NCBI GenBank assembly: GCA_030272155.1
Contig: CP126191.1
Location: forward strand, 9,322,501-9,386,500
Direction of reading: 5' to 3'
Source of the DNA: Tetradesmus obliquus
Lineage: Eukaryota; Chlorophyta; Chlorophyceae; Sphaeropleales; Scenedesmaceae
Length of the DNA: 64,000 bases
Part shown: piece after piece, positions 26,495-48,729 of the stretch
Layout: every line of letters starts with the position of its first letter
How positions within the stretch are numbered: the stretch's first letter is position 1
Program-made: the position numbers and the translations under genes
The notes under the pieces: model-generated
Told to the model about the DNA's origin: nothing
The model's input: the letters and a program-made list of their open reading frames with translations, nothing else
Databases searched by the model: none

Positions 26495-29006
26495 TCAATC
26501 TGACCGCTTGGCAGAGGCGCCTTTCAGGTATCCATACTTCTCTATGTCGCATGCGTACCAGGAGCTAACTGCATCCAGACAGTGCGCGTTGTCGCCCACA
26601 AAAGGATCAGACACGCTGCCGTTGCGTACGTTTTTAGGGACCAGGGGGTTGTAGGGGATCTCTGGCATCTCAGGCTCACGGCGCTGGTTGATCGCAGCAA
26701 GCACCTGCAATTGATTTCAGTATTGTTTCACAGCAGCAGCAGCAGCAGTGTCAGCAACACATGCAGTTGACGATAAGGTGTCCAGGTTCCTGCATGTGCT
26801 GGCCTGCTGTTTGTCATCCGGTCTAGCTCACGCGGCTGGCTTCATGCTCATCAGTGTCAGTGTGTACAGTGACTCTCTTACTGATGGCATGGTCAGCTGC
26901 CGCCCTGCCCTGCTGGCCACCTCACCCCAATCCACCCCACCCAGCCACCACTGCCAACTTGCTGCACATCATCACACACGTCTGCTGCTGCAAGCCTCGC
27001 CGCCACTCACATCTTTCCAGTCTTCATTCGCCGACTCCACGCGCCCGATGTAGTCAACAGCCCACTGGCCCTCACTTGTGACCATGCAGTGGAATTGATC
27101 CATCATATGGAAGTACATGTAGCTCTTGCTGCGCATCAGGCAGCCTGCATCATGCATTGCATCGCTGCTGCCCCAGGGATCCACACAGAAGTCTCCCCAG
27201 GCCACCTGGCAGTGCGGCTGCGTGAGGCTGTCACTGTTGTTACATTCGGAGGTTTGAATTGTGCGGTGACAGATGGCGGCAGCGGCAGGCAGCAAGACGC
27301 GTGTCAGCAGCGGACGTAAGGCTAGAGTTGCAACTTTTAATTCTAAACAAAGTCAGCATGCTGTCCATGCATCTGCTGTGGCAGAGGTCTTGGTGGCTGT
27401 TGTCCTTTATCTTCATGCGCTGCTGCTCCTGATGCTGCTCGTGATAACTACTATCCCCAGGCACATATCATTTCACTGGCTGTATGCTGCTCTCTGCTGC
27501 TGTTCCCTGCCACACAGGTGCACATTTTACTTGAGAAATTTGATACAAACTAAAATAACACATAAGTGACAACAGTACACAGCCGCTCACCCCGCCATGC
27601 AGCCGTCGCTCTGCATGTACTTGAACAGGCTGTACGCGCGCTTCCAGGGGTTGCGCACAAACCCAAACACAAAGTAGTCGCGCCACATGTCTGTGATGTT
27701 CTTGGGGTCCTTGTACCAGTGCTCCCATGTGCCATGCATACCCATGCATGTGCTGCTGTTGGCGCCGCGTGTGCGCTCATTGTTGCACTCGCCCAGCTCG
27801 TCCACAATGCTGGTGGAGGCGGCTTTCGGGCTGCGGATGTAGATGTACTTGTACCTGGTGGAAGCGGAGCAAGTAACGCAAAGCAAACGAAAGACAGCAG
27901 CAGAGCACAGGCGCGCGTGTCAGAGCCTGAAGAACAGATGTCTACAATGCAGGTGGAGGCGGCCTTGGGGCTGCGGATGTAGATGTACTTGTACCTGTGC
28001 GTGGGTTGCAGGTTGTAGTTTGTGCACAGTTGTAACAGTTGTGATGACAGGTTGTGGAAGAAGAGGGGAAGGCAGCAGGGAGTGAGGTGCAGAGCATCGG
28101 AGGACGACACAGAGGACCTCGACAGCATGTAGAAAGACATACAACACGAGTAACCTTTTTTTTACCAGACAGCTGCAGGAGAAGCTGCTTGAAAGATCTG
28201 TGGCAGCCAGCACATATGCCGGATACAGCACATCGCTGAGTTATTGGCAACTCTTGCGCATGTCCTGAATCCGGCCAGGTGCATAAAGCGTTATTATGCT
28301 GCTGCTGTCAGCTCAAGGGTTTACCAAACCACTAAACCACCACTCACTTGTGGTTTATGAACACATGGCAGCCTGGGAACGGCAGCTTTGGGTGGTCTGC
28401 GCCTTTGCAGGTGTAACTCTCCGCTGTTGCAGCCGGCCGCCCCAACAGCGTCCTGTTCATGCGCCACGACAGAAAGTGGTCAAACCGAGCCTCATGTCGC
28501 TTCGTTGACCAGTGCTCCCAAGCCAGGTGGCCCTGCTTCTGCATGTGGCCGTGGATTGTGGGCTGCAGCTGCTGCACTTGCGGAGCACTGCCGAGCTCAG
28601 GAAACGTCTCCGTGAACTTCACGCCTTGGCCTTTGCTGCTGCTGCTGCTGCTGGAGGTACTGCCGGCAGTGCTGCTGCTGCTGCTGCTGCTGGTGGCGGT
28701 GGAGGCGTCGCCGCTTGCGCTTGCTGCTGCTGCGGCGGCGGTGTCGCTAGCGGCTGCCTGCATGCGCAGCTGGCGTGAGTCATTCCAGCCGAGCTTTCCG
28801 CTGTTCTTCTGCTGCAATGCAGAGCTGCTGCTGCTGCTGCTCACGGATCCCCACTGCGACACTAAGCCAACCAGCAGCAGCATTGCCAGCACCATAATGT
28901 ATGATGAATGGCGCATGCTGCGCACGCCGCCGCTGCTCTTGGTTGGGCTGGTGGGGCGGGATCCCGGCAGCTCATACCTGCTGCTGCTGCTGCCGCTGCC
29001 TGTCAT
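26495..29006 (-). CDS. Golgi-type carbohydrate sulfotransferase (Sulfotransfer_2-like)
   Basis: Exons 29006-28348, 27854-27591, 27233-27011 and 26704-26495 join in frame to give 451 aa. Type II layout: a cytosolic Ser-rich tail, a membrane anchor near residues 36-52 (YIMVLAMLLLVGLVS), a Ser/Ala/Thr-rich stem to about 140, then the catalytic domain. The 5'-phosphosulfate-binding motif is RSPKAASTSI (227-236), and VRNPWKRAYS (286-295) matches the 3'-phosphate-binding motif of the family. PAPS-dependent sulfation of a glycan in the Golgi is inferred; the acceptor is unknown. The distal part is Cys-rich (WGDFCVDPWG, CLMRSKSYMYF) and ends near the usual IEKYGY. The start is the first ATG in frame; the upstream extension lacks one. 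Intron 1 holds a partial copy of exon 2. The gene is divergent from RRP4. Confidence 0.88.
27940..27994 (-). pseudogene. partial decoy copy of sulfotransferase exon 2
   Basis: Inside intron 1, about 140 bases upstream (in transcription) of the real exon 2, the sequence CACAG|GTACAAGTACATC repeats the acceptor and first ~55 bases of exon 2 with a handful of mismatches. It encodes YKYIYIRSPKAASTCIVD, including the PAPS-binding motif, then diverges. Using its acceptor and reading on would put the true exon out of frame. Confidence 0.85.
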
Positions 29007-30083
29007 GCTGCAGGTGGTGATGTGCAGGTGTGGCGTGCTCCTCCTGGCAGGTGCAGCAGCCCTACCATGCACTACAGCGCCCTCCAGCTGCTGCGGTTGC
29101 TGGGGCAGGGTGCAGGAGCTGCGAAGCTGCCCCTGCGCCTGCTGGGATGCTGGCGTTGCTCTGGGTGGGTGGGTGCACTGCAGCGGCTGTTGCTGCTGCT
29201 GCTGCTATTGCTGCTCAGGGTGTTTAGAGGGAGCAGTGTGCACCGAACTGCCAAGTACTGCTAGCTGGCTGTGCTATTGCTGCGGAAGGGTGCTGCGAGT
29301 AGACCAGCAAGTGCAACGGTGTGGGAGGAAACAGGATTGACCGTCAATGGAGCCAGCTAAAGCAAATAGATATTGACATCATTGGAGCTATCAACAAATT
29401 GTACATTCATTGGATGACTTGACGGTGACCTGGCTCGGCGCAGCGCTGCTTGAAGCTAGTTGAGGGGTGCACGATTTGTTGCCGCCGAAAGCCATGCAAT
29501 GGCTACTTAGCATCTATCAAACGCTGAACGAAGTGCATCAGGTGCACTAGCAGTGCTACGCAGCTGAAAGAAGCAGGCTGTCACCACCCTCCAGACGCTC
29601 GGCTGCAATGCTTCAGTGCACAGACGGTTGCCACATGTCCTGCTGATGGCTGAGTTCCGTATTTCTTACCTCGATCCTTCTGTGTATCAGCTCTCCTTAG
29701 CTCTGGAGCTGCCGCACCGGTGGTCCGTGCGGTAAAGGAAGGGTGTCCTAGTGACTATCCACGATCAAGGTCAGAGCGTCGTCAAATACAGTTCAACACC
29801 ATACACTTGTCATTGCTCGGCTATGTGAGAGAAGCTGATGGCCAGAATGGCTGACACACAGCTAGGCTGTCACTCACTAGGGCTCTCTGGTGGTGTTTTG
29901 AGTTCCAGAAAGCCTCCAACGCACAGCAGAGCAGCCCAACGCACAATAAACCGATCGCTTACTGAATCGGTTCTTCGCCATCATACATCAGCACTGCAGT
30001 AGGTTGATACATCGAGACAAACAATGGACCTGCAGCTGTGATAGCTTGACACGTTGATACACCTTGAGGTCGCTCGATAAGCT
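29007..30083. other. divergent intergenic region (sulfotransferase / RRP4)
   Basis: About 1.1 kb between two divergent start codons, so both promoters should lie here. I see no gene and no clear TATA box. Confidence 0.5.
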
Positions 30084-31814
30084 ATGTCTGTTGTTGTACG
30101 AAGCTTCGAGGCTGGCAGCAACCTCAAGCTTATAAGCAAGACTTTGAAGGCGGTGGCAAAAAGCACACCAGACTCGGCATACGTTTGTGTTGGCGATACA
30201 ATAGACACAGAGGAGCCAGACTTCCTAAAGTAAGCTGACAGGAGTAGCATACGTATGCCAGCAGCCTGTGGCCATCACCTCAGCATTGCTGCTACTGCTG
30301 CTGCTGCTGCTGCCGTCGGTGCTGGCGATGCTGCTGCTGTTTCAACTCTGCTATATACTGTAGTTTTCTTGGAATTGAGCCTATTTACCATGTTTGCAGT
30401 TCAAGCAGCAGCGGCTGGCACTTGAAAAAGTTATCCGTCATCTCAACAACAGTAGCCTGCAGAGACCAGTATTCCGCAGCTGCCTTGCAGGCGCACTTGC
30501 TCTGCACCCCGTGTGATACATCACACTTGTGTGCATCACAACCTGGCATTGTGCATCATTCTTATGCACCCTTTTCAACGGCTGGCTGTGGCATAATCGC
30601 GTGTGACCCCTGCAGGGGCCACGGCACTGCGCTGGTTGAGGGCCGGCTGCTGGCCACGCTGTGTGGTGTGGTGCAGCGCATCGACAAGCTCATCTACGTG
30701 CAGCCGGTGAAGAGCAGGTGAGGGTGGCAGCAGCAGACAGCAGGGATCTGGGAGCAGCAGCACACAGTGTATGTATACACACAGCCGGCAGCACGCAGCA
30801 TGCAGCACACAGCATGTGCTACAGCAGTGCAGCACACAGCATGTGCTGCAGCAATGCAGCACACAGCATGCAGCATGCTATACAGCAAGGTAGCATGCAG
30901 CACACAGCATGCAGCATGTTATACAGCAGGCAGCAGGCAGCATGCTATACAGCAATGATTGAAAGGACGTTTGCAGTGTGTTGCATCCCTGATAATGCTG
31001 GGTAACGTGAAAGGCACACCTACAGCAGGTGGTGATGTTGATGAGCAGGAGCTTGATGGCAGCAAAAGTGGCTGTGCCTGGAGTGTGTCTGTCGCCTCTG
31101 TTCTCCAGTTTGTCTCTCTCTCCTTGAAGTGTTACCATGTGATTCTTGTGTGGCTGTGCTGTTGTGCTGCTGCAGGTACACGCCAGAGGTTGGTGATGTC
31201 GTGGTGGGCAGGGTGACTGAGGTGAGGCAGCAGCAGCAGCAACCAGCCAGGAGCAGACAGCAGCGGAAGCAGCAGTATAGTACCAGCAGCAGCAGCAGCA
31301 GCAGACAGCAGCAGCAGCAGCACCTCCAGCAGGAGCTGCAGCAGCAGAGCAGCAGCATGTTGGTGACCTCAGTGGGGCAGCATGGCAGCGGCACGCACGG
31401 CAGTTGGCTGACACACATGCTGCAAATGCCAAGTGTTGCTTGCATTGCCTCCTACTATGCCTCACGTTAAACCACTTACCCCACAACATAACCATACTGC
31501 ACTTGCTTGCGTTGCTCGTGTGGTTATCACATTGTTTGACAGATTGCGGGCAAGCGCTGGAAGGTTGACCTCAACAGTAGGCAGGAGGCTGGCCTGCTGA
31601 TCAGTGCTGTCAACCTGCCAGGCGGGGTGCAGGTGGGCGCACGCCAGCAGCGGCAGCACCAGATGCAACAACAGTAGCAGCATTGTACACTCGCCTGCAG
31701 AGTGGACTTGTGCAGCAAAGCATGCAGAAGCATGCATCAGGCCGTTCTCATGCTTGTCACCACATGCACAGCTCATTGAATGCACAGCACACGTGCAGGC
31801 GGTGCTGGTAACTT

Positions 31815-31869
<55 letters not shown>

Positions 31870-34252
31870 AGCGTCGCCGCAATGCGGAGGATGAGCTCAA
31901 CATGCGCAGCATGTTCCGCGAGGGCGACCTCATCAGCGTGAGTGGGCCGCCGGCGGCAGCGCTGCTGCACCTGCAGTTGCTCAGCGCAGCAGCAACAGCA
32001 GCAGTAGGAATTTGCGTGCTGGCAGATGCGGGGCAAGGTGTAGAGTAGAGCACAGTTGAGAAGCGATGCTCCAGTAGCTGCTGATACAGCTTGCATCAGC
32101 TGCTGGCGTGTGCGCGTGACAGGAGCTTACATGTGCAGCGTGTGCCTGCAGCTGCTGCATGCACATGTCCTTCATTGCAAAGGTGCCTAGTACTGCTGCG
32201 AGTACATATGTGCCTGCTCTGACACATTTTGGAGATTTGATTTGCATCGTGTGGCTGCTGCTGCTTCCGCAGGCTGAGGTTCAGGGCAAGAACCAGGATG
32301 GCGGCATCCAGCTGCACACGCGCAGCGTGAAGTTCGGCAAGGTGCGGTGCTGGCATGCATGTCCTTGCAGCATCCAACATGGGCTGCTGGTCCCTGCTGT
32401 ATTCGATGCATGCCTTCTGGCTTGGTCGTTATGCTTGCTGATTCAGTTTGTTAATTTTTACTACATGCTTTCTTCATGACATGAGTTGTGTGTTGCGCGC
32501 TGCAGCTGTCTGGCGGGCAGCTGGTGGTGGTGCAGCCCAAGCTGGTGCATGCTTGCCGTGCGGCGGTTGTGCTAACTTAGTTCGATCCAACAACTCACAT
32601 TGTGATGACGCGTGCTGCAGCTGTCTGGCGAGTACTGCTGGTGGTGGTGCCGCCAGCCTTGAGCAGCAGGCCTGCTTACGCTAGAGCTCTGCATCAAATC
32701 TATCCAAGCAGCCGACATTGTACCGCCTGCCTGCCTGTTGCCATGCTACACCACTGCTGCAGCTGTGTGGTGGGCAGCTGGTGGTGGTGCAGCCCAAGCT
32801 GGTGCGCAAGCAGCGCTTCCACTTCACCACGCTGCAGGGGCTGGACGTGGACGTCATCGCAGGTGAACTGGGCTGGTGGTGGGCCGGCGGTGGGCTGGTG
32901 GTGGGCTGGTGGTGGGCTGGTGGTGGGCTGGCGGTGGGCTGGCGGTTGGTGCATGATAGTGCATGCAGCGGTTGCCCAGCCCCAGTGAACAAGGCTGGCG
33001 CTGCATTGCCAGCAGCTCGTCCGCCAAAATGTGCTTGTACTCCACCTGGCTATCTGCGAATGGTGTAATGAATAAGCTTGGCTGTTCTGGCAGTTTCTGC
33101 CTGCTGGTGTACATGTGGCATTGCATCAAACCAGATGAGTCCGTCTGTTGCCTGCTGTCTCTACTACGGTGCAGCCGCTCATGTATTGTGAGCCGTGCAT
33201 CTTTCACACGTACACCAGTTTGTGTTGACTGCTGCTGCCTCTGCAGGCCTCAACGGGCTCATATGGCTGTCTCCCCACATCCCCCGTGGTGAGGACGGCG
33301 CACCGCTGCAGCAGCAGCAGCAGCAGCAAGCAGCAGCACCAGCAGCTCCCGAGCAGCAGCAGCCGAGCACCGTAGCAGCGGCGGCAGGCGGCAACCCTGC
33401 GGCAATTGCAGCAGCAGCAGCTGCTGCTGGGGGTCCTAGCAAGCAGCAGCGGGAGGCTGTGGTGCGAGTGGCTGGTGCCATTCGGGCGCTGGCGGCGCTG
33501 ATGCTGCAAGTCTACCCGGACTCTATCGTGGAAGCTTACACGGTCAGTGGCAGATCTCATTCATATTTTCTGTGTGTATGCAATGAAGCTTGGTGTGGGC
33601 AGTGCTGTGCTGCCTGTTGCCTCTTGCGGGCTGTGCATGATGTAGCGTTGTGTTTGCTGCCGATACTGCGCCGTGGCTGTGCCACTGTATGCCACTGCTG
33701 CCGGTGGGTGCTGTGAAGAGGCTACCCAGCTTTTGCCATGCTCGTGCTGAGCCTCCTCTCTTGTTCAACTATCGCTGCCGCCAGCCACCTCAGACCATTT
33801 TAGACTTGTGATTAAGCATCATCTTGCACTGTTCTGTTGCTCTTGCATAGTGTGCTTCCTGCAACTTGTTTATACAGCCTGTGACGATTAACCTCAGCTT
33901 AGCTCCCACTGGGGCCCCACTCTGCTGTTGCACAAGCTCCTCGCTCAGCTAACCCTGTGGCTCCTAGTCACACCACAGTTGCTCACTTGCTCTGTCCTGC
34001 AGGCATCCATCGAGGCAGGCGTGGCAGCGTTAGACATGAGTGAGCGGCCCTTCCTGAGGTGCACGCCAACTGTGTCTGTTGTTACTTTGACTGTTACATT
34101 GACCAACGTACAATGTTGTGCTGCTTGTCCTGCAGGCGTCCATTGAGGCTGGCGTGGCAGTGTCAGACATGAGTGAGCGGTGCTTCCTGGAGGTGCTGGC
34201 GCAGCGCGAGGTGGCGCGGCGCAGGCGAGAGGCGGTGCATGCGGCAGACTGA
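30084..34252 (+). CDS. RRP4: exosome complex subunit RRP4 (EXOSC2 homologue)
   Basis: Nine exons: 30084-30229, 30616-30717, 31176-31221, 31543-31632, 31872-31937, 32273-32341, 32763-32862, 33247-33542, 34136-34252, giving 343 aa. It aligns along its length with animal and yeast RRP4: GDTI, GHGT, then the S1 domain with YTPEVGDVVVGRVTE, KRWKVDLNSR, NLPGG and RRRNAEDELNMRSMFREGDLIS, then LHTRS and a KH-type region starting GLNGLIWLSP. RRP4 is one of three RNA-binding cap proteins of the nine-subunit exosome, in nucleus and cytoplasm, and helps guide RNA into the core. The KH region carries an insertion of about 40 residues with poly-Gln and poly-Ala (about 225-270), absent from the animal protein. 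Introns 6 and 8 hold partial copies of the exons that follow them. TGTAA at 34562-34566 is a likely poly(A) signal. Confidence 0.94.
30785..30958. repeat. degenerate repeat in RRP4 intron 2
   Basis: Imperfect tandem copies of GCAGCACACAGCATGCAGCA-like units, later joined by CATGTTATACAGCA segments, fill most of this part of intron 2. Confidence 0.75.
31817..31871. repeat. (CTG)n tract ending in the acceptor of RRP4 exon 5
   Basis: About 17-18 uninterrupted CTG units run straight into the CAG of the 3' splice site at 31869-31871. Confidence 0.95.
32506..32549 (+). pseudogene. first decoy copy of RRP4 exon 7
   Basis: After TGCAG at 32501-32505 the next ~43 bases match the start of exon 7 with two mismatches, encoding LSGGQLVVVQPKLV (real exon: LCGGQLVVVQPKLV). 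The match then stops and an in-frame stop follows within about a dozen codons. Confidence 0.9.
32616..32657 (+). pseudogene. second, more decayed decoy copy of RRP4 exon 7
   Basis: GCTGCAG followed by CTGTCTGGCGAGTACTG and then CTGGTGGTGGTGC resembles the first decoy with changes and a small indel. It sits between the first decoy and the genuine exon at 32763. Confidence 0.75.
32863..32947. repeat. G-rich TGGGCTGG array starting at the donor of RRP4 exon 7
   Basis: Starting within about 10 bases of the 5' splice site, units of GGTGGGCTGG/GGCGGTGGGCT repeat about seven times. The G triplets are on the transcribed-sense strand. Confidence 0.9.
34003..34058 (+). pseudogene. decoy copy of RRP4 exon 9
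   Basis: After a good acceptor (CCTGCAG) the sequence encodes ASIEAGVAALDMSERPFL, against ASIEAGVAVSDMSERCFL in the genuine last exon 133 bases further on. It ends at a possible donor (CTGAG|GTGCAC). If included it would be 56 nt long and shift the frame. Confidence 0.88.
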
Positions 34253-34752
34253 CGGGTAGTGAAGGGTTTCTGTTTGACTAATTTTTTGATCTGAACGTGC
34301 GAATTCTGGTGTATGGTAGGACAGAGCCAGTGTGCCGGTAGTTGGTGCTGGGTGTGCATGGTTGTCAACATGACATGCTCTGTTGTGCTTGTGCTTTGAG
34401 CGGCCGTGTGGGAGCTGCAGCAGCTGAGATTGAATATGCATTGGGTTTTTTTCGTGGCCGCAGGCATGGCTATGTCTTGGGCAGTGAACCAGAGTCTGCC
34501 ACTCGCTGTGCAGTGACTGCACAGGTCAGCACCCCTGGCGAGGGTTTTTGCAGGGAACCTGTGTAACTGCCAGGCCACAGTATGAACTCAGCGTGCTTTG
34601 ATAACTCACTGATTGAATTCAACTCTTAGTTCTGCAAGTAACGATACGGGGTGCGCAACTCGTCGAGTAGGGCTTTTCTGGTTGATGTCCCGTGCGAAAA
34701 AGGCTCGTGTCCTTGCTGATCCAGCCCATGCCACACAAGACACGACATCAAC
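34253..34752. other. intergenic; RRP4 3' UTR
   Basis: No gene seen. TGTAA at 34562-34566 is the probable RRP4 polyadenylation signal, about 310 bases after the stop. The remainder should hold the promoter of the LRR gene. Confidence 0.6.
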
Positions 34753-36558
34753 ATGGAAGCGGATGCATGCGAGCAAGGAAACGCTTTATGGGAGCGCCTG
34801 CCTGCAGCTGTAGCGAGTGACGTCCTGAACAGGTTGCACCAAGCTGACCTAGTTGCAGTAGCTACAGCGTGCTTGCAATGGCGGTCAGCGGTGCAAAGCA
34901 GTTTGAACACACTTGCCCCAAGGAGCGTTCTGGTGAGCAGGGATGCCCTGTCTTCTCGCCACTGGGGTTGTGTGCAAGTGCAGCAGCAGCAGCACCACCA
35001 CCACATGGCTTCACCTCAACTTCAAACCTATGCAGCAGCCCCATTTGATCAGTCTCACGAATATTGGCAGTATGTGATGTCACGTGTTTGGTCGTGGCTG
35101 CAGGCGATGCCGTTTGTTGGCTGCTGCGTGTCGCTGAAAAGCCTGCGCCTAGGCGAGGCACTACCAGCTGCGCCAGGTGGGACGTGACACACTGCGTGCC
35201 CGCTGCTGATATAGCTACCTTGCAACATCACTACAGATAATTATGGCTAGCAGCAGCAGCACCTGTGGCCTTGTGTGTGGACCATGTGCCATGTAGTGAC
35301 GTGCACATGTTGCAGCGGCCTCACCAGCACTGGTCAGGTGTGTTGTGGACACAAATATGGGCAGAGTGCAGTGTGTGCTCTGACCTGCGCAGCGCACTTT
35401 TCAGTGCAGCACATCACAAAATGGTGTGGCAGAAGAGATGACACGCCACCTGCTGCACCATATGAACACTGCCAACCTCTCATAATCTAGTTGCGCTTTC
35501 ATTGCTGATGTCAACACCTGGGCACTTCAGCCTTGTGGCGCTCACGCAGCTGCGCTGTGTCGTGCCATGTTACATAACATGTTTACTTTCCCCTCCTACA
35601 GGCCCCTTCCCAGGGTTCTGCCACATAACGGCAGCGACAGGCCTGACTGCGCTCAGCCTGGCCGCCAGTGCCACGGCAGCATGGAATGGCAGCACTGCAC
35701 CGCTGCCTGCTGCTGACTTGGCATGCGTGACTGCGCTGCAGCTGCTACAGGTGACACATTATATATTGCTGTCTGCTGAAACACATTTCGCACAATTGCG
35801 CCGCCAGCAGTTGTACTCACAGCAGCACACTTGCCGCCATGCATGCATGCACATTTCTTTCATTTCTTGTGTTTCTCCCTGAAGCTTTATCACGCAACGC
35901 ATCTGCCGCTCGTCACTGCTGATACAGGTGCTAGACCTCAGCCAGCAGCCGCTGCTGCAGCAGCCAGGCTCGCTGCAGCCGCTGCTGTCACTGCTGCAGC
36001 TATCCAGCCTCAACATCAGCCTCAGCGGCTCTGCTTTGCATCTGCCACTCAGCAGCTGGGCAAGCCTGGCTCGCCTGACCAGCTTGAGGCAGCTGGATGT
36101 ATCGGGCTGTGCGCTGTGTTATTTTGACAGCTGTTTGTGTTATAACGATGGCGCTGAGGGGTGTGGCTGTAGCCAGACTGACAGCAGGCGTGGCAGTTGT
36201 AGCGGCGCATGCGATGCAGCTGTTGAAGGAGATAGGCAGAAAACCATAGGGCAGGTGCGGGAGGCCTGTCAGTGCCAGTGTAGGCAGCAGCAGAGGGAGG
36301 TGGGTGCAGCTGCGGCTGCAGGTCAGAAGAAGAAGCTCGTGGCTGCTCCGCTGCAGCAGCTAAGCAGCCTGCAGCAGCTGCAGCGGCTGGTGCTGGCAGA
36401 CTGGCACCAGCCCCCTTCAGCAGCAGGTGCGTCTTGCTGCGTATGCTGCAGATGCAGGGCTGTTGCATGGTACAGCGTCCTCTCCCTCGTGTTTTCAAGC
36501 ACTACGTGAACCATCAGCAGCAGGACTTTGAGGGTGCCTCACGTACTGCACGTTCGTG

Positions 36559-36596
<38 letters not shown>

Positions 36597-38475
36597 AGGC
36601 TTCCAGATGCTGCGCCAGCTGCCTGCCCTGACACACCTGGACCTGTCTCGCATACTGCGCGGCAGCAGCAGCAGCAGCAGCAGTACAGCAGGCCTCACCG
36701 AAGGACGCCAAGCACTGCTGCTGCTGCTGCAGGGCTGGACATCCCCGCAGCCTGACCAGCAGCAGCAGCATGATGGCAATGCATCCGCAGCAGCACCAGC
36801 AGCTGCCGCACAGCAAGAGATTGTTGCCGCCACTGCTGCCAGCAGCACCGCTACCGCAGCCGCCACAAGCAGCATCAGCATCAGCAGCGGCTTCTTGTTT
36901 AGCCGCTTGCAGCACCTGGAGTGTATTGACAGCCCTCTGCTGTTTAGTGAGCAGCTCTGGGCAGGCTTGCCGGGGCTTACAAGCCTAAACCTCGGCGGCT
37001 CTGATGTGTTCCGGGGTACAGGGCTGGCACGGCTGCAGCTGCTGCAGCGCCTGGTGCTGAGTGGTGAGCGTAGATGGATCAGTGCACTGCAGCTGTGGAG
37101 TATTGTGGTGGGACGCTTGTGTTGTTGACTGCGGAACCAACTGAACAGACTGCATACAGACAGTCATGGGCCAGGGTCTGTGCTGGGCTGTTGAAGTTGC
37201 GGCAAGGGATGGTTGACTGAAGTGTGACTGCAGGAATGGCTGGACCTATGCTGTGGCAATAATGCCAGCTGCTGCGGCATGCAGGCTGCGGAAAAACACT
37301 CTCTTATGCTGCTGCTGCTGCTGCCGCTGCTGCTGCTGCTGCTGCTGCCAGGCTGCCACCAGCTGGACTATGATGCGCTGGCCGAGCTGCTGCTGTCCTG
37401 CAGCAGCCTGACCCACCTCGACCTGCAGCGGTCAACCATCATACTGAATGGTAGTGGGGCCACAGGGCAGCTGCTGCGCCAGGGCAGATACAAGCCACCT
37501 GCACAGCCAAAACAGCAGCAGCAGCATCATGCAGATGTGGGTTGGTGCATATTCCCCAACCTCAGCAGCAACAGCAGCAGCAGCAGCAGGAGGGATGTGT
37601 GCAGCCAACGCAGCAGCAGCACAGGCAGTGCACCAGCAGCAGCAGCAGTAGCAGCAGAGCAGCGTCCAGGGCTGCGGGTCCTCAAGATGAGTGAGTGTGG
37701 TTTAGCGCTGGAGGGCTTAGCCTGGCACACACTGCCAGCAAACCCCGACAATACCCCAAGCGACCCTTCCCTGCTGCTTCTGCACCTCGTTCTGCAAAGC
37801 ACCGGCCAGCTGCAGCAGCTGGGGCTGATGCACTGGGCGCGCGCGACGCCGCTGCTGCTCGAGCGCGTGCTGTGCCAGATCGTCCCGGCAGCGTCCAAGG
37901 TTTTGGCCGATCTGGATCTCAGCGGCGGCTGCCTGCCGGCCGATCCCGCCAAATGCTGGCAGGGCCTGGCAGCCGCCACAAACTTAACTCGCCTGGATCT
38001 GTCAGACGCAGGGTTCAGCAGGCTCGGGTATGCAAACGCCTGCGGCACAAACCCTACTGTGGCGATGCTGGCGGCTGTAGCAGGGATGCGGCGGCTGTCG
38101 GAGTTGAGGTTGTGTGGCTGGCGCATGTATTTTGCGTCACTGCATGTGCTGGCTGGGCTGCAGGGCTGCCTGAGGAGCCTGGAGCTGTCGGGGGCGAGGG
38201 ACATGAGTGATGGCGCGCTGTGGAGCTTGACGCACCTCACAGGTGGGCTGCGGCGGGCTGTGGTGGGCTGCGGTGGGCTGCGGTGCGCTGTGGTGGGCTG
38301 CGGTGGGCTGCGGTGGGCTGTGGTGGGCTGTAGTGTGCTTTAGTACACTGAGGATGCTGAGGTACAGGGTGTTGGTATTTGGCACCTGGATCACTGCGGT
38401 GGCAGAGCGTTTGATCATTGCGCTGTGATGGACTGGCCAGCATGCATATGAGCTGGCAGCAGACTGTTTTGTAAC

Positions 38476-38544
<69 letters not shown>

Positions 38545-39277
38545 AGGCCTCACGCGGCTGGGCCTATCAGGTGCCGCTGCCTCCAGCCCCCACACCTGGC
38601 CGCTCATCTTGTTCCACTTGCCAGGCCTGCAGCACTTGGACCTGTCAAATGCTGGCAACTTCAACAGCAGCAGTGTGGCAGGCCTGGTGCAGCTGCGGCG
38701 GCTGACGAGTTTAGATGTGCGGGGGACGCAGACAGGGGACAGGGCAGGGCTGGCCCAGCTGGCTAAGCTCAGCAGCTGCAGGAGATTGGCGCTGTCGCTG
38801 CTGCCAGCAGAGCAGCAGCAAACTGGTGCGTCAGGGGTGGCTGGAGCTGCTGCTGCTGCTGCTGCTGCTGCTCAGTTGGATGGCTGCAACAGTGGGAAGT
38901 CCGCAGCAGCTGAGACAGGCAGTGCTGGAAGCAGCAGCAGCAGCACTGCTGCTAACGGTGTGGCAGATGGCAGGGGCTCTCTGCTGCAGCAGCTGGTGAA
39001 TCACTTGGGGCACAGCCGGATTAGTCACAGCCAGCAGCAGCAGGTGCAGCAGCCTGCTGCTGCTGCTGCTGCTCCCCAGCACGTGCACCAGCAGCAGCGC
39101 CGGCGCAGCAGCATAGATGGGCGTGACAGCTTAGGTTTGTCATCGTCTTTGGAGGATTATGCGTATCTGGCTGTGCTGGGCAAGTGCCACAGCCTGCGGC
39201 AGCTGCTGCTGGGAGCTGGGCCAGCAGTGGCAGATTACTGCAGGCAGCTGCTGCCGCCATGGATTGAAGTGCGCTGA
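34753..39277 (+). CDS. F-box-like leucine-rich-repeat protein
   Basis: Six exons: 34753-35176, 35602-35750, 35928-36426, 36599-37063, 37352-38242, 38547-39277; about 1052 aa. Residues 13-45 (LWERLPAAVASDVLNRLHQA, then DL...CLQWR) resemble an F-box helix bundle. The rest carries irregular LRRs, e.g. LQLSSLNISLSGSALHL, LTSLRQLDVSGC, LPALTHLDLS, LPGLTSLNLGGS, LTHLDLQRS, LTRLDLSDAGF, LRSLELSGARDMSDGALWSL and LPGLQHLDLSNAGNF, separated by Ser/Gln/Ala-rich insertions. Four of five introns are phase 1 and several fall at the same L-x-G/L point of a repeat. F-box/LRR proteins commonly choose substrates of SCF ubiquitin ligases; that role is inferred only. Exon 3 contains a Cys/Gln-rich stretch (about residues 255-300) that could be an unrecognised in-frame intron. 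TGTAA lies 27 bases after the stop. Confidence 0.8.
36561..36598. repeat. (CTG)n tract at the acceptor of LRR exon 4
   Basis: About a dozen CTG units end in CTGTAG, the 3' splice site used for exon 4. Confidence 0.9.
38243..38341. repeat. G-rich TGGGCTG array starting at the donor of LRR exon 5
   Basis: The 5' splice site GTGGGCTG is itself the first unit of an array of GTGGGCTGCG/GTGGGCTGTG units, about nine or ten copies. It remains an open frame for about 33 codons. Confidence 0.92.
38477..38546. repeat. (CTG)n tract at the acceptor of LRR exon 6
   Basis: About 22-23 uninterrupted CTG units run directly into the acceptor CTGCAG at 38541-38546. Confidence 0.95.
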
Positions 39278-39675
39278 GGAGCCATAATTATTGTGTACGG
39301 GGATGTAAAATTGCCGGCTCGTTATCTAGCTGCGTCGCTGTTGGTCTCAACAAAAACTCACTGTGATGTTCCTATATATGCCCAAAAGCACAAACGAGCA
39401 CGGCAGCACCTACGACGATGGCTGTAACGTTTGATATCAACCAAGCATGGCCGATTGAGTGTTGTGCGGGTCTGCCGCAGTCCTGCTGCGTCAGTAATGC
39501 GGAACAGCACCAAAGTCGCCGATTCTGTTACCTGACTTCAGTCCGTCCATAAGCTCGTTGCGTGATCTCCCGCATGATGCATAGCCCACCGGCGTTGGAA
39601 TAGCGGTAGATATCTACTTATCCTGCGCCTCTGCTGCTCAGCATCTGGTGATCATCTGCTCTCTGTGCGCTCGCC
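39278..39675. other. intergenic; LRR poly(A) signal and phosphatase promoter
   Basis: TGTAA motifs at 39304-39308 and about 39422 probably end the LRR transcript. No gene seen; the remainder should include the promoter of the phosphatase gene. Confidence 0.6.
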
Positions 39676-41106
39676 ATGCAGCACGCCTTCGCGATCTGCT
39701 GGCGTACTCTACTAGTGTACACTTTGCTGCAATGCGGCACTTGTATGTGCTTCAAGGTGAGCGTTCGTCTGCTATAACCCCAACGGGTTGCAGCTGCTCG
39801 GAAGGCCAGTCCATTAGCTCCGTGAAAACACGCATCCGGATCCTTAAACGAAGGCTTAATCGCTATTGAATCATGACTATGCTTGTTACAGCCGTCTTCG
39901 ACGCGTGTCACTAGGCCTGCTGCTGCTGCATCAACACTCTGTCGCCGAAACAGTGCCTGCCAAAGCAGCAGGCTTGCGTCAGTGCGTGCCAAGCAACGTC
40001 ATACGTCCCTCCGCAACTGCGCCACTAAATACAAACTGTTGTGTGCCTTGCTGTTGCAGCTGGCAGCTGTGGGCGACTATGGTGTGGACAACTCCAATGA
40101 GCTCAAGGTGACACATCAGCAGCAGCAACTCAATTTTGCATGCCAATGCCCTCAGAAATAAACGTAAGCTGCAAAATCTCCCATGTGGCATCGCAAGAAG
40201 AAGCTATGACGGGTGGGGTTGCAGGAAGGGCAGTGTGCGCAGAATGTCAGCCTGGGCCAGGCCCTGGCCACTGCTGCTGCGTCAGCATACGGCAGCGGGC
40301 CCACGAGCAACATAGCAGGCTCATGACAGCCAACCCAAATGCAGTGTCTATGATGCATCTTGTGCAGCGTTCCAAGTTCAGCCTCACCAACCAGACTTGA
40401 GCCTAATCCTTTCTTGCGGGACAATGCTAGGCAGACGTCAAAAAACTGGCATCGCAAATGCATAGAGGCTGCTGAACCTTTGCTGTGCACTCTCCAGCTT
40501 CCTGCTGCTGCATCTTCTGGCAGCTTCTTGTGCATGCAGCTTGTCACTCACCAGCATGCCTCCTGGCTGGCTGCTGGCTTTTGCAGGTGGCCAACATGAT
40601 TGCTGCATGGGGCGTGGATGGCGTGCTTGCTCTGGGAGGTGGGCGGCAGCAGCAGCAACAGCAGGAGTGGCAGGAGCAACAGCAGCAGATGCAGCTTTGA
40701 GATTCATTTCTGGCAGCAGCATGGTGATGTATGTGGCAGTTGAATTGCCAGCTGTAGGCTGCGACCTTTTTCCGGCAGGTAGGCGGTGATGGTTGTGGCA
40801 ATTGCGGCAGTGCCTCTGTGGCAGGGCCTAAAAAAGCAGCTGCGGCACCAACCGTCAAACCTGTGCAGCAGCAGGAAGGAGCCAGCAGTTTCATATTCCC
40901 TTGCAACAGCAGTGCGCGTGGCTTGCTCGGATGCGCTCCCAGTGCTGGCCCGTGGTACAGTGCATGCGATGAATGCACACGATTCATTGAGTTGAAGCAT
41001 ATGTGTTCCTGCTTGTACACGCTGCTTGTCTGCAGACAACAACTACTTTGTTGGCAGCAACAGCACCATCGGTGAGCACACCATGCGACTGCTTGTGGTG
41101 CACATG

Positions 41107-41150
<44 letters not shown>

Positions 41151-42302
41151 TCTCGCAGGCACAACACAAGACAGTCACCACCAGATGCTGCGGCATGATT
41201 CTCAGCAGCCCAGGAAGTGTTCAAACAAGCAGCATGAAGGGTGGCGTTGCTAACCTTGTCTGCTGTGCTGCCATGCAAACCACCAGATAGCAGGCACTGC
41301 CATGTGCATAATCCAGGCGGCTCACTCTGGCTAGTGCCTGTTCTGCTTTGTGTGCAGACCCTCAAGTGGGCAAGTAATATGTTGTGTTAGAGGCAGCTGC
41401 CGATCAGCTTTCACTGCTTCATCAACAGTTCAAATCACTTGCTGTGTGTGCAGACGCTCAAGTGGGCAAGTACTATGGCAGCTTCATTTACCCTTATAAG
41501 GGCACCTACGGCAGTGGCTCTCCCACGGGCACCAACCGCTTCTGGCCAATCACTGGCAACCATGACGTAAGCGTAACACAACGCATCCAAGGTTCAATGC
41601 TTTAGATTGCTGCTTGTTGGAATGATATTGTAGTGCTGTGCTGTGGCAGTGCTGCACTGATGATGTTGAGCATATGCATTCGAGATTGATGAGCATGGGG
41701 GACTGCTGCTGGGAGCAGAGTGCTGATGCGCACACGCAAGTTGATGCACGTTGATGCATTTGGATGCAAGTTTCTGCAGAGCACGCTCTCATCTCCTCCG
41801 CACAACTGCCCTGGCCGCAACCCCCAGCTCTGCAAACCATGCGCAGCTAACCTTCACCACCGCAGACCTGCCTGCTTTCTTGTCGTGCTGGCTGCATTTG
41901 GTGCATGCGTTGCTGCACAGTGGGAGCAATACCTGTACCGCTAACCTACCTGCCTGCCTGCCTGCTGCACTGGCTGCTGTGTTTGCCGCAATTGCTGCAG
42001 TGGGGAAACACCTGCGGCGACGGCAACAGCGGATGCAGCGCGTCGTGTGCAACAGGCAGCCTTGCAGCGCACCTCTGGTACATGCCCGTGGGTGGGAAGG
42101 CTTACTACAACAAGGTGCTGGGTGAGCGTGGGCGCCTGCTGCTGCTGCTGCTGCTGCAACACCTTTGACGCTACAAACACCTGCATCTTGCTGCTGTGAC
42201 ACAGCAGCTTTGTTTCCTTGCCTGGGTCTGCTCGAAAGACATGGCTACCTGCCCCTGACAATGCTGTGCTGCCGTAATGCTGCTGCCACCCAACCGCACA
42301 CC

Positions 42303-42337
<35 letters not shown>

Positions 42338-42603
42338 ACGTGCAGCTGGCGGCCTGCTGGAGATCTTTGCACTCGACAGCGACTGCAACCAGCGCGATGG
42401 CACCAGCCCCACATCAGTGCAGGGCCAGTGGCTGCAGAATGCACTGGCTGCCAGCACAGCCACCTGGAAGTTTGTGCTGCTGCACCACTCGCCCTTTAGC
42501 TCGTCCACAGGACATGGGACTAACCCACGCCTGCAATGGTGACCCTTGGTGCAAAGTTAGTGCATGTGCTGCCAGCCATGAAGATATACACATGCACATC
42601 ATG

Positions 42604-42674
<71 letters not shown>

Positions 42675-42911
42675 GCGAGGTGCTACAGTTCAGACACTAG
42701 TATGTATACTGAGCGTTGTGCACCGTAGCAACAGCAGCAGCCTGTGCAGCGAGCATCGTCACGTCACGTCATGCAAACAATTCAAACGATGGCTGTGGCC
42801 AGGGATATGCCTGATGCTGTGCTGCCATGTGTGTGGCGTGGTGTGCTGCAGGCCGTTTGAGCAGTGGGGAGCGCATGCCGTCTTCTCAGCGCATGATCAC
42901 GTGAGTGGCTT

Positions 42912-42956
<45 letters not shown>

Positions 42957-44361
42957 GGACGTCCAGCATGCTGATTTGCATGCTGACATGGCTTGGCATG
43001 CAGGTGCCGCATGGGGGGCCTGATGTGGTAGTGTGATAGGGAGCGCTCAGCAGCTGTGACGTGTGCGTGGCCTGTCAGCCGGCTGCTGCTGCTGTCAATG
43101 TAATGGCGGCTCCCTTGCTCACAGCATGCAGCCACCGCTGGGCTGGCGCATACAACATGTTGACTGCCTGCAGGCAGCAGTAGCTACCTGACTGCCTGCG
43201 AATGTGCCAAGCACATGTCAAACAGCTGACTGACAATTAGCTCGAACGCCACTGCCAATGCCCTATACCACCACGAGGAGGCAGAGTGCAGCCCTGTGCT
43301 TGTGTCACCTAGTATGCCTCCTGCTTCTTCTGCTGCTGCTGCTGCTGCTGCTGGTGCTGCTGCTGCTGCTGCCAGCTGTACGAGCGCATCACCAAGAATG
43401 CTGGCTTCCCCTACTTTGTGAATGGCGCTGGAGGGCAGAGCCTCAACAGCTTCGGCACACCAGAGTCAGGTGGGGCCGGCGGGAACAGCAGCAGCAGCAG
43501 CAGCAGCAACGGCATGCCAGAGCCATGTCAAGCAGCAGCAGCTGACAGGCTGCTGGCCGCGTGCTTGGTTTGCCTTGTTTGGTGTTGGTGCTGGTACAGC
43601 ATGCCGCCGAGAGCATGCTTTGAAAGTGAAACAAACAGCCATGAACCTGCATCAGCATTCACATCCTCATCGCTACTACTGAGGCAAGAACACAGCTTGT
43701 TACAATGTATTGCTCTCTTCCTGTCTCTGCTGCTTCCGCAGGCAGCGTGGTGCGCTACAGCACCACCCATATACATACTATGCCAAGCTTGCTGCTGCTG
43801 CTGTTGTTATTGACCGGACTGTCCTTGCCTGTTTCCTCCGCCTTCCAACTACTTCCTTGTGCAGGCAGTGCAGTGCGCTACAGCACCACCCATGGTGCTC
43901 AGCTGCTCACCATCAACGCCACTACAGCAGACATCGCCTTCTACGCCGCCACAGACGCAACCAACCCCTACGCCTCACAGGTCGACTGCTACCGCCTCAC
44001 CAAGCCAGCCAGCGGGGCAGTTGCTTACTCCAGCTGTGCTGCAGGCGCACCACCACCTGCTGCTCCACAGTATTCGCTGCTGACAGGCGCTGCTGCAGAT
44101 GACACAGCAGGCACTCACAACCGCGTGATGTGGCGGTGAGACTAGCTGCACTTGTGTTGGAGGTTGACAGGCCAGCACGTGTGTTGGTGGAATGCTTATC
44201 GCTGCTGTTGCCGCTGCTGCTGTTGTGGCAGTACATGGCCATGACACAGTGACTCTCTGCATCCTTTTGGCAACAAATAGAATTGTCAGCAGCTTCGCCG
44301 ATGCATGCATTGCTGCAAGGATGTACACCTTTGGCCAACAGAGGAGGAGCTGTGGCGCATC

Positions 44362-44415
<54 letters not shown>

Positions 44416-46140
44416 GCAGGTACACCTCCACTGCTGCTGCTGGCGGCGTCGACCCTGCCTGGGCGGCAACCAGCTTTGCTGACACGTCTTGGAAGCTGGG
44501 AGCAACACGCCTGGGGTGGGACCCGTGTTGTTTTGTGATGTGATGTGTTTGTGTGGTGATGCTTTGTGGCGGCATTGCTCAGGCGTATGCATCAACTATG
44601 CATGCCCCGCACACTTAATTCCTAGCCAACCGTATCGTCTTGCTTGCACTTTCGGGTACCTTGCAGACGCCAGCAGAAGCAACAGGGCGTGCAAGACGCG
44701 CTGTGCCCCACTCCGTGTTGAATGGCATGTGCTGCTGCTGCTGCTGCTGCTGCTGCTGCAGGTATGGCAACGACTTTGTGTACAACACCACACTGCCGGA
44801 CGCCGTGACAGGCCTGCTGCACCACTGGCTCAGGTGGGACGAGTGGGGCACCAGCAGGAGGTCTGTAGGGCCTACAGCAACAGCGATGTGCAGCTACACA
44901 TCGACTTACCATGTTGGTATCGCGCAGTGGCTGCCGAGGTTGCCCAGCCGCAGCCAGGAAGGTTCTGTTGCAGAGTCCACCAACATAATAAGCTATTTAA
45001 TGATTGATTTCACAACATAAGCAAAGCAACCTGCAGTTGCCGCTCAAGATCATTCATGCACTGCCCGCTGCTATCTCATCCTTCTGCCGCTGCTGCTGCT
45101 GCTGCTGCTGTTGTTGCGCCAGGGTGTATGTGTGCCTGCCCCCCACCGCACCTGCTGCACTGGGCAGTGTGCGGCTCAAGGTGCTGTCAGACAACACTGC
45201 AGAGGTTTTCATCAACGGGCTGAGGGCCTACACAGACCCGGCAGCAGACCACGAGCCCATGTGAGGCGCAAGAGCATGTGTAACATGTGCTGTGCACGAG
45301 TGTGTATTGCTGCCAACCTGTATGCTCTGAGTGCAGCTGAGCGCAGGTGCTTGCGCTTGCACACTTGTACATTTGGCAGCTGCTGGGCACAGCAGCTTCC
45401 CTGGTTGCTGTTGTTGATGTAATGTAATGCTATGTAATGTAATGTAATGTAATGTAATGTAATGTAATGTAATGCATCAGCTGTGCAAAGTGCTGCTAGC
45501 AGCCAGGAGCTGGGTGTAGTTCTGCAGCTGTGCAGCCCTGGTGATGCGTACACGTTTGCGGCACGCTCACAGCTCAATCTGACACCTTATTACCAGTAGC
45601 AACAAGGCCTTGCAGCAATGGAGTGCCACTTGACGTGTTAGCGCTTTCAAGCCGCAGCTGCAACTGGTGCGATGGCTGCTTGCTGCATGCCATGGCTGTC
45701 CAGTGCAGTTGATGTGCCACTGGCACAACAAAACTGCTGCTGCCGCTGCTGCTGCTGCCGCCTCCTGGTGCAGCTACTGGAACTCTCTGGTGAATATCGC
45801 CCCAGGCTTTGTTGCGGGTAGGCGGTGTCTTGGAGCTTCCAGCTCTGTTGTTGACTGAGGGGTGGCAGTTAACATTCGCGTTGTGGAGGGCCACGCACAT
45901 AGCCTTGTTGTTAGGGCACATGAACCCTGAGAGGTATATTACACTAGGGCCTGCTTGGTGGTTTTGGAAAATCTGCCTTTCCCGCCTATTTTTGTTATAT
46001 CTAAACATCTATGCACAACCTGTAGGGCTAGGGCAGACCAGGTGGTGCCAGGTGGTGCCAGTCAACTAACAAATGCGCTGGCCAAACCTGAAACGCGGAT
46101 GCTTGGCACCGACGCTACTCCCGCCGCCGCTGCTGCTGCT

Positions 46141-46647: not shown

Positions 46648-48729
46648 CTCCTCGGATGCTGCCATGGACCTGGACATGACGTATGTTGCCGCAGCGCCAC
46701 TGCCAGGAGTAGTGGTTAGCTCCAGCGCTGCAGCATGCAGCAGCACGCCACCACCGCCAGCAGTACCCTCACCATCACCGCCACCATCACCGTCACCATC
46801 AACAAAGCCGTCTGTTTCCCCGTCCCCGTCCCCACCCCCAACTCAGCAGTACTCCCTGATGACAGGCGCAGTTGCCGACAACGCGGCAGGCACACACAAC
46901 CGTGTTGCTTGGAGGTGTGCACATGTTAGAATCGTCCTATTTCCATTCAAGAGTAGAATCGTCCTACATGCAAGCTGTACCTGGCATAGTATGCCAGTAC
47001 TAGTGCAGTGTGGGGCACAGCACTGCCTTGGTGGACTCACAATGCGGCACACACAGCAGCCATAGCCTGGCGTGCATTTGCCCCCATGCGCCTGTAGCTA
47101 GTTGGTTACTTAGCGGCACGCCTGCTTCCCTCTGACTCTCCCGCTGCTGCCTGCCGCAGGTACACCTCCACTGCTGCTGCTGGCGGCATCGACCCTGCCT
47201 GGGCGGCAACTAGCTTTGCTGACGCGGCTTGGAAGCTGGGCGCAGCACGCCTGGGGTGAGCCGGACCACCGTTGCTGCTGCTGCTGCTGCTGCTGCTAAA
47301 GTTACTGTGATGCCGTAGCCTGTTCAGTTGAGCTCTGCCCTGCAGCAATGCGCAACATCAGCAGTCAGCTGCTCAAGCATCAAAGTTACTGCTGCAGTTC
47401 CCAAATGGCACATTGGCCACCTAGCTTGCCAAGCTTCTAGCTGCTTCAACCAGGCCTGCGCAGTGACTTCCCTGCTTGCCTGTTCCCTGCAAGCAGTCGT
47501 GCCTGAATCCTGCAAGCAGTCGTGCCTGTTTCCTGCAAGCGATCGTGCCTGTTTCCTGCAAGCAGTCGTGCCTGTTTCCTGCAACCAGTCGTGCATGTTT
47601 CCTGCAAGCAGTCGTGCCTGTTTCCTGCAAGCAGTCGTGCCTGTTTCCTGCAAGCAGTCGTGCTGCTTGCAGTGGCATCTCCTGCGCAGTGCGCACTCGT
47701 TGCAAGGCCCAACAGAAGCAACACTTATCACATGTGCTCAACTCTGTCCGTACTGCTTATATACTCTGCTGCTGCAGGTATGGCAACGACTTTGTGTACA
47801 ACACCACACTGCCAGATGCCGCCACAGGCCTGCTGCACCACTGGTTCAGGTGGGACGCGCAGGGCAGGGTAGCCTGATGCATTGTTGAGGCTGCGAAAGG
47901 CAGTCCTCAAACCTGAGCATAGGAGGCCAGCAGCGGCTAACCTTGTTTGAGATGGATAACAGTCTGCTTTAGCAGACCGGCTTTCAAACCAATACACACC
48001 AACACCGACGAGATGGCCGCTCATATGCTGCTGTGCCTGCTGTGCATATCTCGCTACTGCTTTTGCAGGGTGTATGTGTGCCTGCCGGCGTCCGCGCCTG
48101 CTGCGCTGAGCTCTGTGCGGCTCAAGGTGCTGTCAGACAACACTGCAGAGGTGTTCATCAACGGGCTGAGGGCCTACACAGACCCGGCGGCAGACCACGA
48201 GCCAGTGTAAGCTGTTACATGACTACAACAGTTGTGGGCTATGCAGCTCGGGTGATGAATTGAACATAGCGACATGTTGCAGCACACATCACCCTGACCA
48301 GGCTGACGATTATGCATATCAAAGCTGGCAGGCAGGCACCCATGCAGGCCCATTCATGAGTGCATGGTCATTGCTTCCCCCTGCGTAACGTCACAGCAGT
48401 CACGACCCACAATTTTGACAGAGCGATGCTCTTCCCGTACCTCCCTTGTTTCTTTGTCAACTCGTCATCTGCTCCTGCCGCTGCTGATGCTGTCACCTGC
48501 CGCTGCCTCGTGTTGCAGATACTGGAACACAGCAGTGAACGTCAGCCCAGGCTTTGTAGCAGGTAGGTGGGGGTTTTCAAACCCCAAACATCCTCAGCTA
48601 ACATCAGGTATTGGGCACTGTGATTAATCTCAGGTACGACAATCCAGCTGCAGCTGCTGCTTTGCCCATCCCTGATAAATGCGCTCAGCAGTTACTGATA
48701 TCAGGTACATTACTGCGCATCAATAGGTG

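Follow-up and report, generated by a model that had tools for sequence, protein, structure and literature searches.

Exon-head copies in Tetradesmus obliquus introns, probably direct repeats that arose through insertion beside exons

Introduction

What leaves a partial copy of an exon's first bases in the intron just upstream of that exon? The question is raised by a 64,000-nucleotide stretch of the Tetradesmus obliquus genome (contig CP126191.1; C1:9322501-9386500 in our numbering, called the window throughout), in which a preliminary description had reported six such copies in three genes. These genes encode exosome RRP4 (Pfam RRP4_S1 and KH_6), a sulfotransferase (Sulfotransfer_2) and a calcineurin-like phosphatase (Metallophos). 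Our analysis covers the window, searches of the 104.7-Mb genome (17 contigs), and a 304-kb sample, about 0.3% of the genome, made up of the window and a further 240 kb (200 kb of contig C2 and four 10-kb stretches). Splice junctions were taken from a simple self-trained gene model with low-complexity filtering, or were read by eye. We favor, with modest confidence, the reading that insertions at exon edges gave rise to the exon-head copies, as direct repeats.

Results

A dispersed element separates one copy from its exon

The evidence that carries this reading comes from exon 5 of the phosphatase gene (PAP5), where copy, spacer and true exon head lie side by side:

41344..41381, forward strand: phosphatase exon 5 head copy, read as the upstream target-site duplication, 38 bp, 92% identical to the true head (self-BLAST, repeat script)
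41382..41439, forward strand: dispersed element in the PAP5 spacer, member of a 12-copy family, 3′ end not recognizable (genome searches, alignment)
41440..41477, forward strand: true exon 5 head and acceptor, read as the downstream target-site duplication (self-BLAST, repeat script, Pfam)

A genome search with the exon 5 region returned the gene, a paralogue and six places that match the spacer at 80-90%, and a further search from one of these six brought the total to 12, which is a lower bound. The copies align as one unit of approximately 86 bp. Of four copies that were folded, L037 shows clear inverted ends of approximately 10 bp; these are weaker in an alignment of 11. No Rfam family matched the element (E ≤ 1) in the seven loci, of 11, that this comparison covered.

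Direct repeats of 15-66 bp abut the element at eight of the 12 copies. Seven were found by script (38, 46, 23, 19, 52, 66 and 33 bp, with 91-100% identity), and the eighth, at L046 (15-18 bp), was first found by eye. A junction called by the gene model lies within 20 nt of the element at five copies (PAP5, L033, L034, L035 and L043), and with junctions read by eye (L044, L045, L046, L038 and L036) the count rises to ten of 12. When tested against uniform placement within introns, this proximity gave p values of 0.019 for the five model junctions, 0.003 with L044 added and 2e-7 for all ten. The gene model places the element in an intron or at a junction at PAP5, L033, L034, L035, L036, L037 and L043, and the other placements were made by eye; at L042 (~+48) and L037 (~+300) the element lies deeper inside the intron.

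The individual loci show how the repeats sit across the junctions. At PAP5 the repeat spans an acceptor, with 14 bases from the intron and 24 from the exon. Four other family loci carry Pfam domains: SBP, AAA_34, Clp_N and Peptidase_M1_N. The repeat at L035 consists of the exon tail of the SBP gene with 19 intron bases, that at L043 of 42 exon and 10 intron bases of the AAA_34 gene, and that at L044 of 56 exon and 10 intron bases of the Clp_N gene, where the gene model continues past the exon end and the donor was placed by eye. At L034 the element begins 5 bases past the model donor of the Peptidase_M1_N exon and the repeat is unclear, while at L033 it begins ~11 bases past the model donor with no visible repeat. 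L045, L046 and L038, where no Pfam match was found, were placed by reading frames alone, and at L046 the gene model proposed a gene on the opposite strand. L036 (233-563) appears to hold nested events: an earlier head copy is present there, and the element lies at its acceptor. The modelled intron extends well past the insert at L034, L035 and L043.

Because the PAP5 spacer is a dispersed element, the repeats abut it and the family lies near junctions, the PAP5 head copy is best read, from its sequence, as a long target-site duplication straddling the splice site. By the accepted model direction, five elements are in sense and three in antisense orientation relative to the gene (seven and five when calls by eye are included). 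Reverse splicing of RNA was set aside given these antisense insertions, three by model (L033, L036 and L044) and five of 12 with calls by eye.

Two side observations belong to this family. At L037 (135-293) an independent exon-tail copy lies 127 bp downstream at 91% identity. At L045 (265-413) the 33-bp repeat holds CAG/GTGCGA with open frames on both sides, and it is possible that this locus is a new intron with both splice sites derived from the repeat.

A staggered break could account for copied exon edges

We propose that a short DNA segment (46-132 bp, in one instance the dispersed element of ~86 bp and its short inverted ends) would enter a staggered break, with one cut a few bases into the intron and the other within the exon. 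Filling in of both overhangs would duplicate the stretch between the cuts, and with it the exon edge and its splice site. Whichever copy adjoins the rest of the exon would still work as exon, and the other copy would become intronic together with the insert, which is why heads would be found copied upstream and tails downstream. The duplicated splice site may in turn have helped the host gene to withstand such an insertion.

The repeats themselves suggest where the cuts would fall. The exon part is larger than the intron part in 18 of 19 repeats (intron parts 0-19 bases, exon parts 8-56), a count biased toward exon parts because most of the 19 were found via exon matches. The seven family loci in this list were not found via an exon match (PAP5 apart, which led to the family), and the exon part is larger in all seven. 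L036, which is outside the list, is reversed, with ~19 bases on the intron side and 4 on the exon side of the older copy's acceptor, as read by eye.

All six copies are found in the window

Self-BLAST of the window followed by anchored alignment recovered all six copies at the places first described, each beginning at an acceptor AG. We refer to sulfotransferase exon 2 as ST2, to phosphatase exon 10 as PAP10 and to the two copies of the RRP4 exon 7 head as 7a and 7b. Beyond PAP5, the features are as follows:

27800..27857, reverse strand: true sulfotransferase exon 2 head and acceptor, the downstream repeat copy (self-BLAST, anchored alignment, Pfam)
27858..27939, reverse strand: ST2 spacer, 82 nt, relatives elsewhere in the genome not detected (genome search)
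27940..27997, reverse strand: sulfotransferase exon 2 head copy, the upstream repeat, intronic, absent from the paralogue, 93% identical to the true head (self-BLAST, anchored alignment)
32499..32548, forward strand: RRP4 exon 7 head copy 7a, 96% identical to the true exon (self-BLAST, anchored alignment)
32549..32612, forward strand: spacer between 7a and 7b, relative not detected (genome search)
32613..32654, forward strand: RRP4 exon 7 head copy 7b, degenerate, a weak match at 83% identity with an anchored core of only 8 + 8 bases (self-BLAST, anchored alignment)
32634..32762, forward strand: stretch from 7b to the exon, ending exactly at the true acceptor, with a single genomic relative at C1:9422060-9422196, 77% (genome search)
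32756..32805, forward strand: true RRP4 exon 7 head and acceptor (self-BLAST, anchored alignment, Pfam)
33993..34056, forward strand: RRP4 exon 9 head copy, ungapped core; the gapped match, 33988-34062 against 34122-34196, is 88% identical (self-BLAST, anchored alignment)
34057..34125, forward strand: RRP4 exon 9 spacer, 69 nt, relative not detected (genome search)
34126..34189, forward strand: true RRP4 exon 9 head and acceptor (self-BLAST, anchored alignment)
43738..43770, forward strand: phosphatase exon 10 head copy, 91% identical to the true head (self-BLAST, anchored alignment)
43771..43860, forward strand: PAP10 spacer, 90 nt, relatives not detected except CTG-rich matches (genome search)
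43861..43893, forward strand: true phosphatase exon 10 head and acceptor (self-BLAST, anchored alignment, Pfam)

Except at 7b, the homology starts 3-14 bases before the exon and runs 24-55 bases into it, and copies lie 96-257 bp from their exons. In a comparison of the 100 bases preceding each copy with those preceding its exon, five of the six window copies scored inside the shuffled range, and PAP5 scored 23 against a shuffled maximum of 22 because its repeat takes in 14 intron bases. In the sulfotransferase paralogue the same intron is 177 nt long, compared with 493 nt here, and is without an exon-head copy. By parsimony it is the true ST2 exon that changed (CCG, AAA), since copy and paralogue share CCC and AAG.

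The ST2, RRP4 exon 9 and PAP10 copies have the same anatomy as PAP5 with spacers that lack detected relatives, and an insertion origin is probable for them on these sequence features. For the RRP4 exon 7 copies such an origin is uncertain. Across 32499-32654, 7a and 7b have common flank bases and share two differences from the true exon; 7a is almost unchanged further and 7b much changed, possibly through conversion from the true exon. Elsewhere in the window, 44750-44850 and 47766-47866 are an exon duplicated with its flanks, 3 kb apart at 92%.

Heads and tails are both copied, and the copies cluster at junctions

The preliminary description held that copies always lie 5′ of the true exon and predicted an excess of exon-head over exon-tail copies. 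The first statement fits the six window copies and fails beyond them, where exon tails are copied downstream, and no excess was found in the 304-kb sample. With 40-base probes from 53 genes and 473 exons of the self-trained model, 7 of 314 exon heads matched the upstream intron and 0 of 308 the downstream one. Of the exon tails, 6 of 307 matched the downstream intron and 2 of 303 the upstream one; these two comprise an overlap with a head copy and a match rich in CTG. Probes from exon middles matched in 1 of 435 cases and intron probes in 4 of 587, and one of the seven head-upstream and one of the six tail-downstream matches are CTG-rich. Alignments anchored at AG or GT and scoring at least 9 gave 6 of 350 heads (0.4 expected) and 8 of 348 tails (0.6 expected). 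Part of these hits are rich in CAG/CTG, and the number of heads is too low, since some copies were taken for exons by the gene model. The one-sided rule was a sampling effect of the five exons it happened to cover.

The suspicion that placement is not random fared better, without the proposed anchoring at 3′ splice sites, given that tails are copied like heads. With repeat arrays and low-complexity segments (14 pairs) set aside, 27 non-tandem local duplication loci were counted, and 16 of them touch a predicted junction, compared with 8.2 expected by random shift, a figure that may be inflated as the gene model called some copies exons. Only 1 of 2000 random shifts was as high, and five of the 11 non-junction loci left in the count are still arrays. 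By our sorting, nine of the 16 are head and seven are tail loci. Together with the position of the element, these counts support a clustering of exon-edge duplications at predicted splice junctions. A block-shuffled version of the 200-kb C2 stretch yielded no comparable segments, and no inverted copies passed a stricter filter in the window and C2.

Tandem duplication explains some loci elsewhere in the genome

Several observations weigh against insertion as the origin of the copies. Clear repeats were not seen at four of the 12 element copies (L033, L034, L037 and L042). Only the PAP5 spacer belongs to a larger family. The 7b stretch has one relative, 77% identical and 67 kb away on the same contig, which likewise ends at AG, and genome searches detected none for the four other window spacers or for the sampled spacers C14, C2_82, C2_163 and C2_86, with the caveat that lack of a match is no proof of rarity. 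The PAP5 upstream intron scores 12.0 against a cross-locus control maximum of 11.0, an excess we attribute to its 14 repeat bases. Outside the window, the introns beside several copies still match past the repeat, which makes these copies tandem duplications, and the junctions themselves are predicted, from the self-trained model or by eye. Among 20 other dispersed-repeat copies, only one, L005, has a 20-bp flanking repeat, and it fails the random control (20 against a 95th percentile of 30).

That same locus also offers some support for insertion. A second dispersed repeat, L005 (2687-2843, 113 bp, with relatives at L006 and window 60859-60908), has an exact 20-bp direct repeat at both ends, and this 20-mer occurs only at its two places in that locus and in none of the other loci examined. 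Three other dispersed-repeat copies, with flanking repeats of 11-14 bp, beat the control narrowly.

The alternative that survives best is tandem duplication of junction-spanning units of 85-165 bp, in which the intron half decays and the exon half stays recognizable, perhaps via gene conversion from the true exon. We regard it as possible, although improbable as a general account. Intron halves are alignable at C14:3505, C2:163675 and C2:1086, and flanks also at C2:41253, a locus without a predicted junction. The heads C14, C2_163 and C2_187 have own-locus intron scores above every cross-locus control, as do five of seven tails that are not beside the element (C11, C2_191, C2_82, C7 and C2_1086). 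Tandem duplication would automatically yield both heads and tails, and a weak excess of more decayed copies (29 of 348 tails scoring at least 5, against 11.6 expected) is consistent with it. Its difficulty is in the window, where intron homology before copy and exon does not rise above cross-locus controls at ST2, 7a, 7b, RRP4 exon 9 and PAP10. Intron scores were likewise not above controls at the C2_86 tail, the L037 tail copy and five family tails (L035 and L043-L046). In addition, exon halves are much less diverged than intron halves (at C14, 2 of 58 bases against about one third, by eye), which is beyond simple neutral decay; gene conversion may have acted at loci with conserved exon halves. 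The dispersed PAP5 spacer is also left unexplained. As sole cause, tandem duplication fails for the window loci given the lack of intron homology above controls (PAP5 apart) and the dispersed PAP5 spacer, and it stands at several loci elsewhere. Since some loci keep intron homology and the five family tails do not, at least two processes produce exon-edge copies in this genome.

The copies look like by-products

The preliminary description had also suggested copying of exon heads from the 3′ splice site and a role for the copies as poison exons or spliceosome decoys kept by selection. The acceptor AG is kept in register in 10 of 11 listed head copies, the self-trained model calls several copies exons, and RRP4 7a (39 nt) would be in frame if used as a cassette. 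A head-copying process does not fit with the copying of exon tails, and poison exons do not fit with frame effects that differ between copies or with 7b having decayed beside 7a. The statement that every copy would cause a frameshift or early stop holds as far as an early stop in 7a, 7b and PAP5. The PAP10 copy acceptor reads in frame into the true exon for 123 bases with no stop, ST2 shifts frame with no stop before the modelled end of exon 2, and RRP4 exon 9 gives an alternative 47-residue end.

Differences between true exon and copy, over 18 copies and 697 nt, comprise 30 synonymous, 27 nonsynonymous and 1 stop, an unconstrained look in a count that omits 7b, C2_1086 (stop within the copy), C2_144, C7, L038 and L046 and so favors better-preserved copies. 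The nonsynonymous share is 48%, compared with the ~57% we estimate if the copy were free and the exon accepted only silent changes. The pattern lies near that estimate, gives no indication of copies kept as coding exons and has no bearing on their use in splicing. We consider a head-copying or selected origin unlikely, and we regard the copies as by-products.

An assembly artefact is very improbable: a perfect 4.4-kb tandem repeat elsewhere in the sample (L009-L010, C2:3007041-3015839) may be a recent duplication or an artefact, but window copies differ from their exons by 4-17% with distinct spacers, and at eight loci the one element is accompanied by repeats.

Discussion

Miniature inverted-repeat transposable elements (MITEs) are short, have short inverted ends and no evident coding capacity, and leave short repeats of fixed length. 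The ~86-bp element resembles them in size and in its ~10-bp inverted ends, and differs in its variable repeats of 15-66 bp. Three published systems are also close. Introners are short non-autonomous elements in genes, and some of them have terminal inverted repeats and generate target-site duplications in which splice sites are contained (PNAS 2022, PMC9860276). Like them, the ~86-bp element forms a multi-copy family of similar intronic elements, with 12 copies. Earlier characterized introner families have repeats of 3-9 bp and the insert turns into a new intron (PMC9860276), whereas repeats here are 15-66 bp and most insertions would be at the edge of an apparently pre-existing intron. Neointrons in Daphnia are described as staggered-break insertions, with direct repeats on either side of an insert whose source is mostly unknown (Genome Biol Evol 2014, PMC4202315). 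The end of the adjacent exon is repeated on the far side of the insert there as well, but the exon-shared repeats measure 4-12 bp and are associated with new introns. Direct repeats at intron borders have also been read as insertion footprints (Rogers and Bendich 2025, PMC11782384); those are 4-30 bp (mean 11.4) around whole introns, compared with up to 66 bp here beside an insert in, or at the edge of, an intron. Our literature searches found no description of this exon-edge pattern and none of introners in Scenedesmus.

Mobile elements close to exons often harm splicing. If the target-site duplication is long and extends across the junction, the splice site would be copied too, offering a simple route to harmless insertion and to intron growth by added blocks. 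More tentatively, and with doubt, we hypothesize that the integration process itself recognizes exon-intron junctions, cutting a few bases into the intron and 10-56 into the exon, and that at least one family, of ~86 bp, uses it. Such a process would give its target a spare splice site, make insertion splicing-neutral by construction, and have made many exon-edge duplications genome-wide. If junction targeting does operate across the genome, it would link element integration to gene architecture, with insertion at exon edges leading to intron lengthening. Where the repeat contains AG/GT, the same route could, if targeting is true, lead from exon-edge insertion to new introns.

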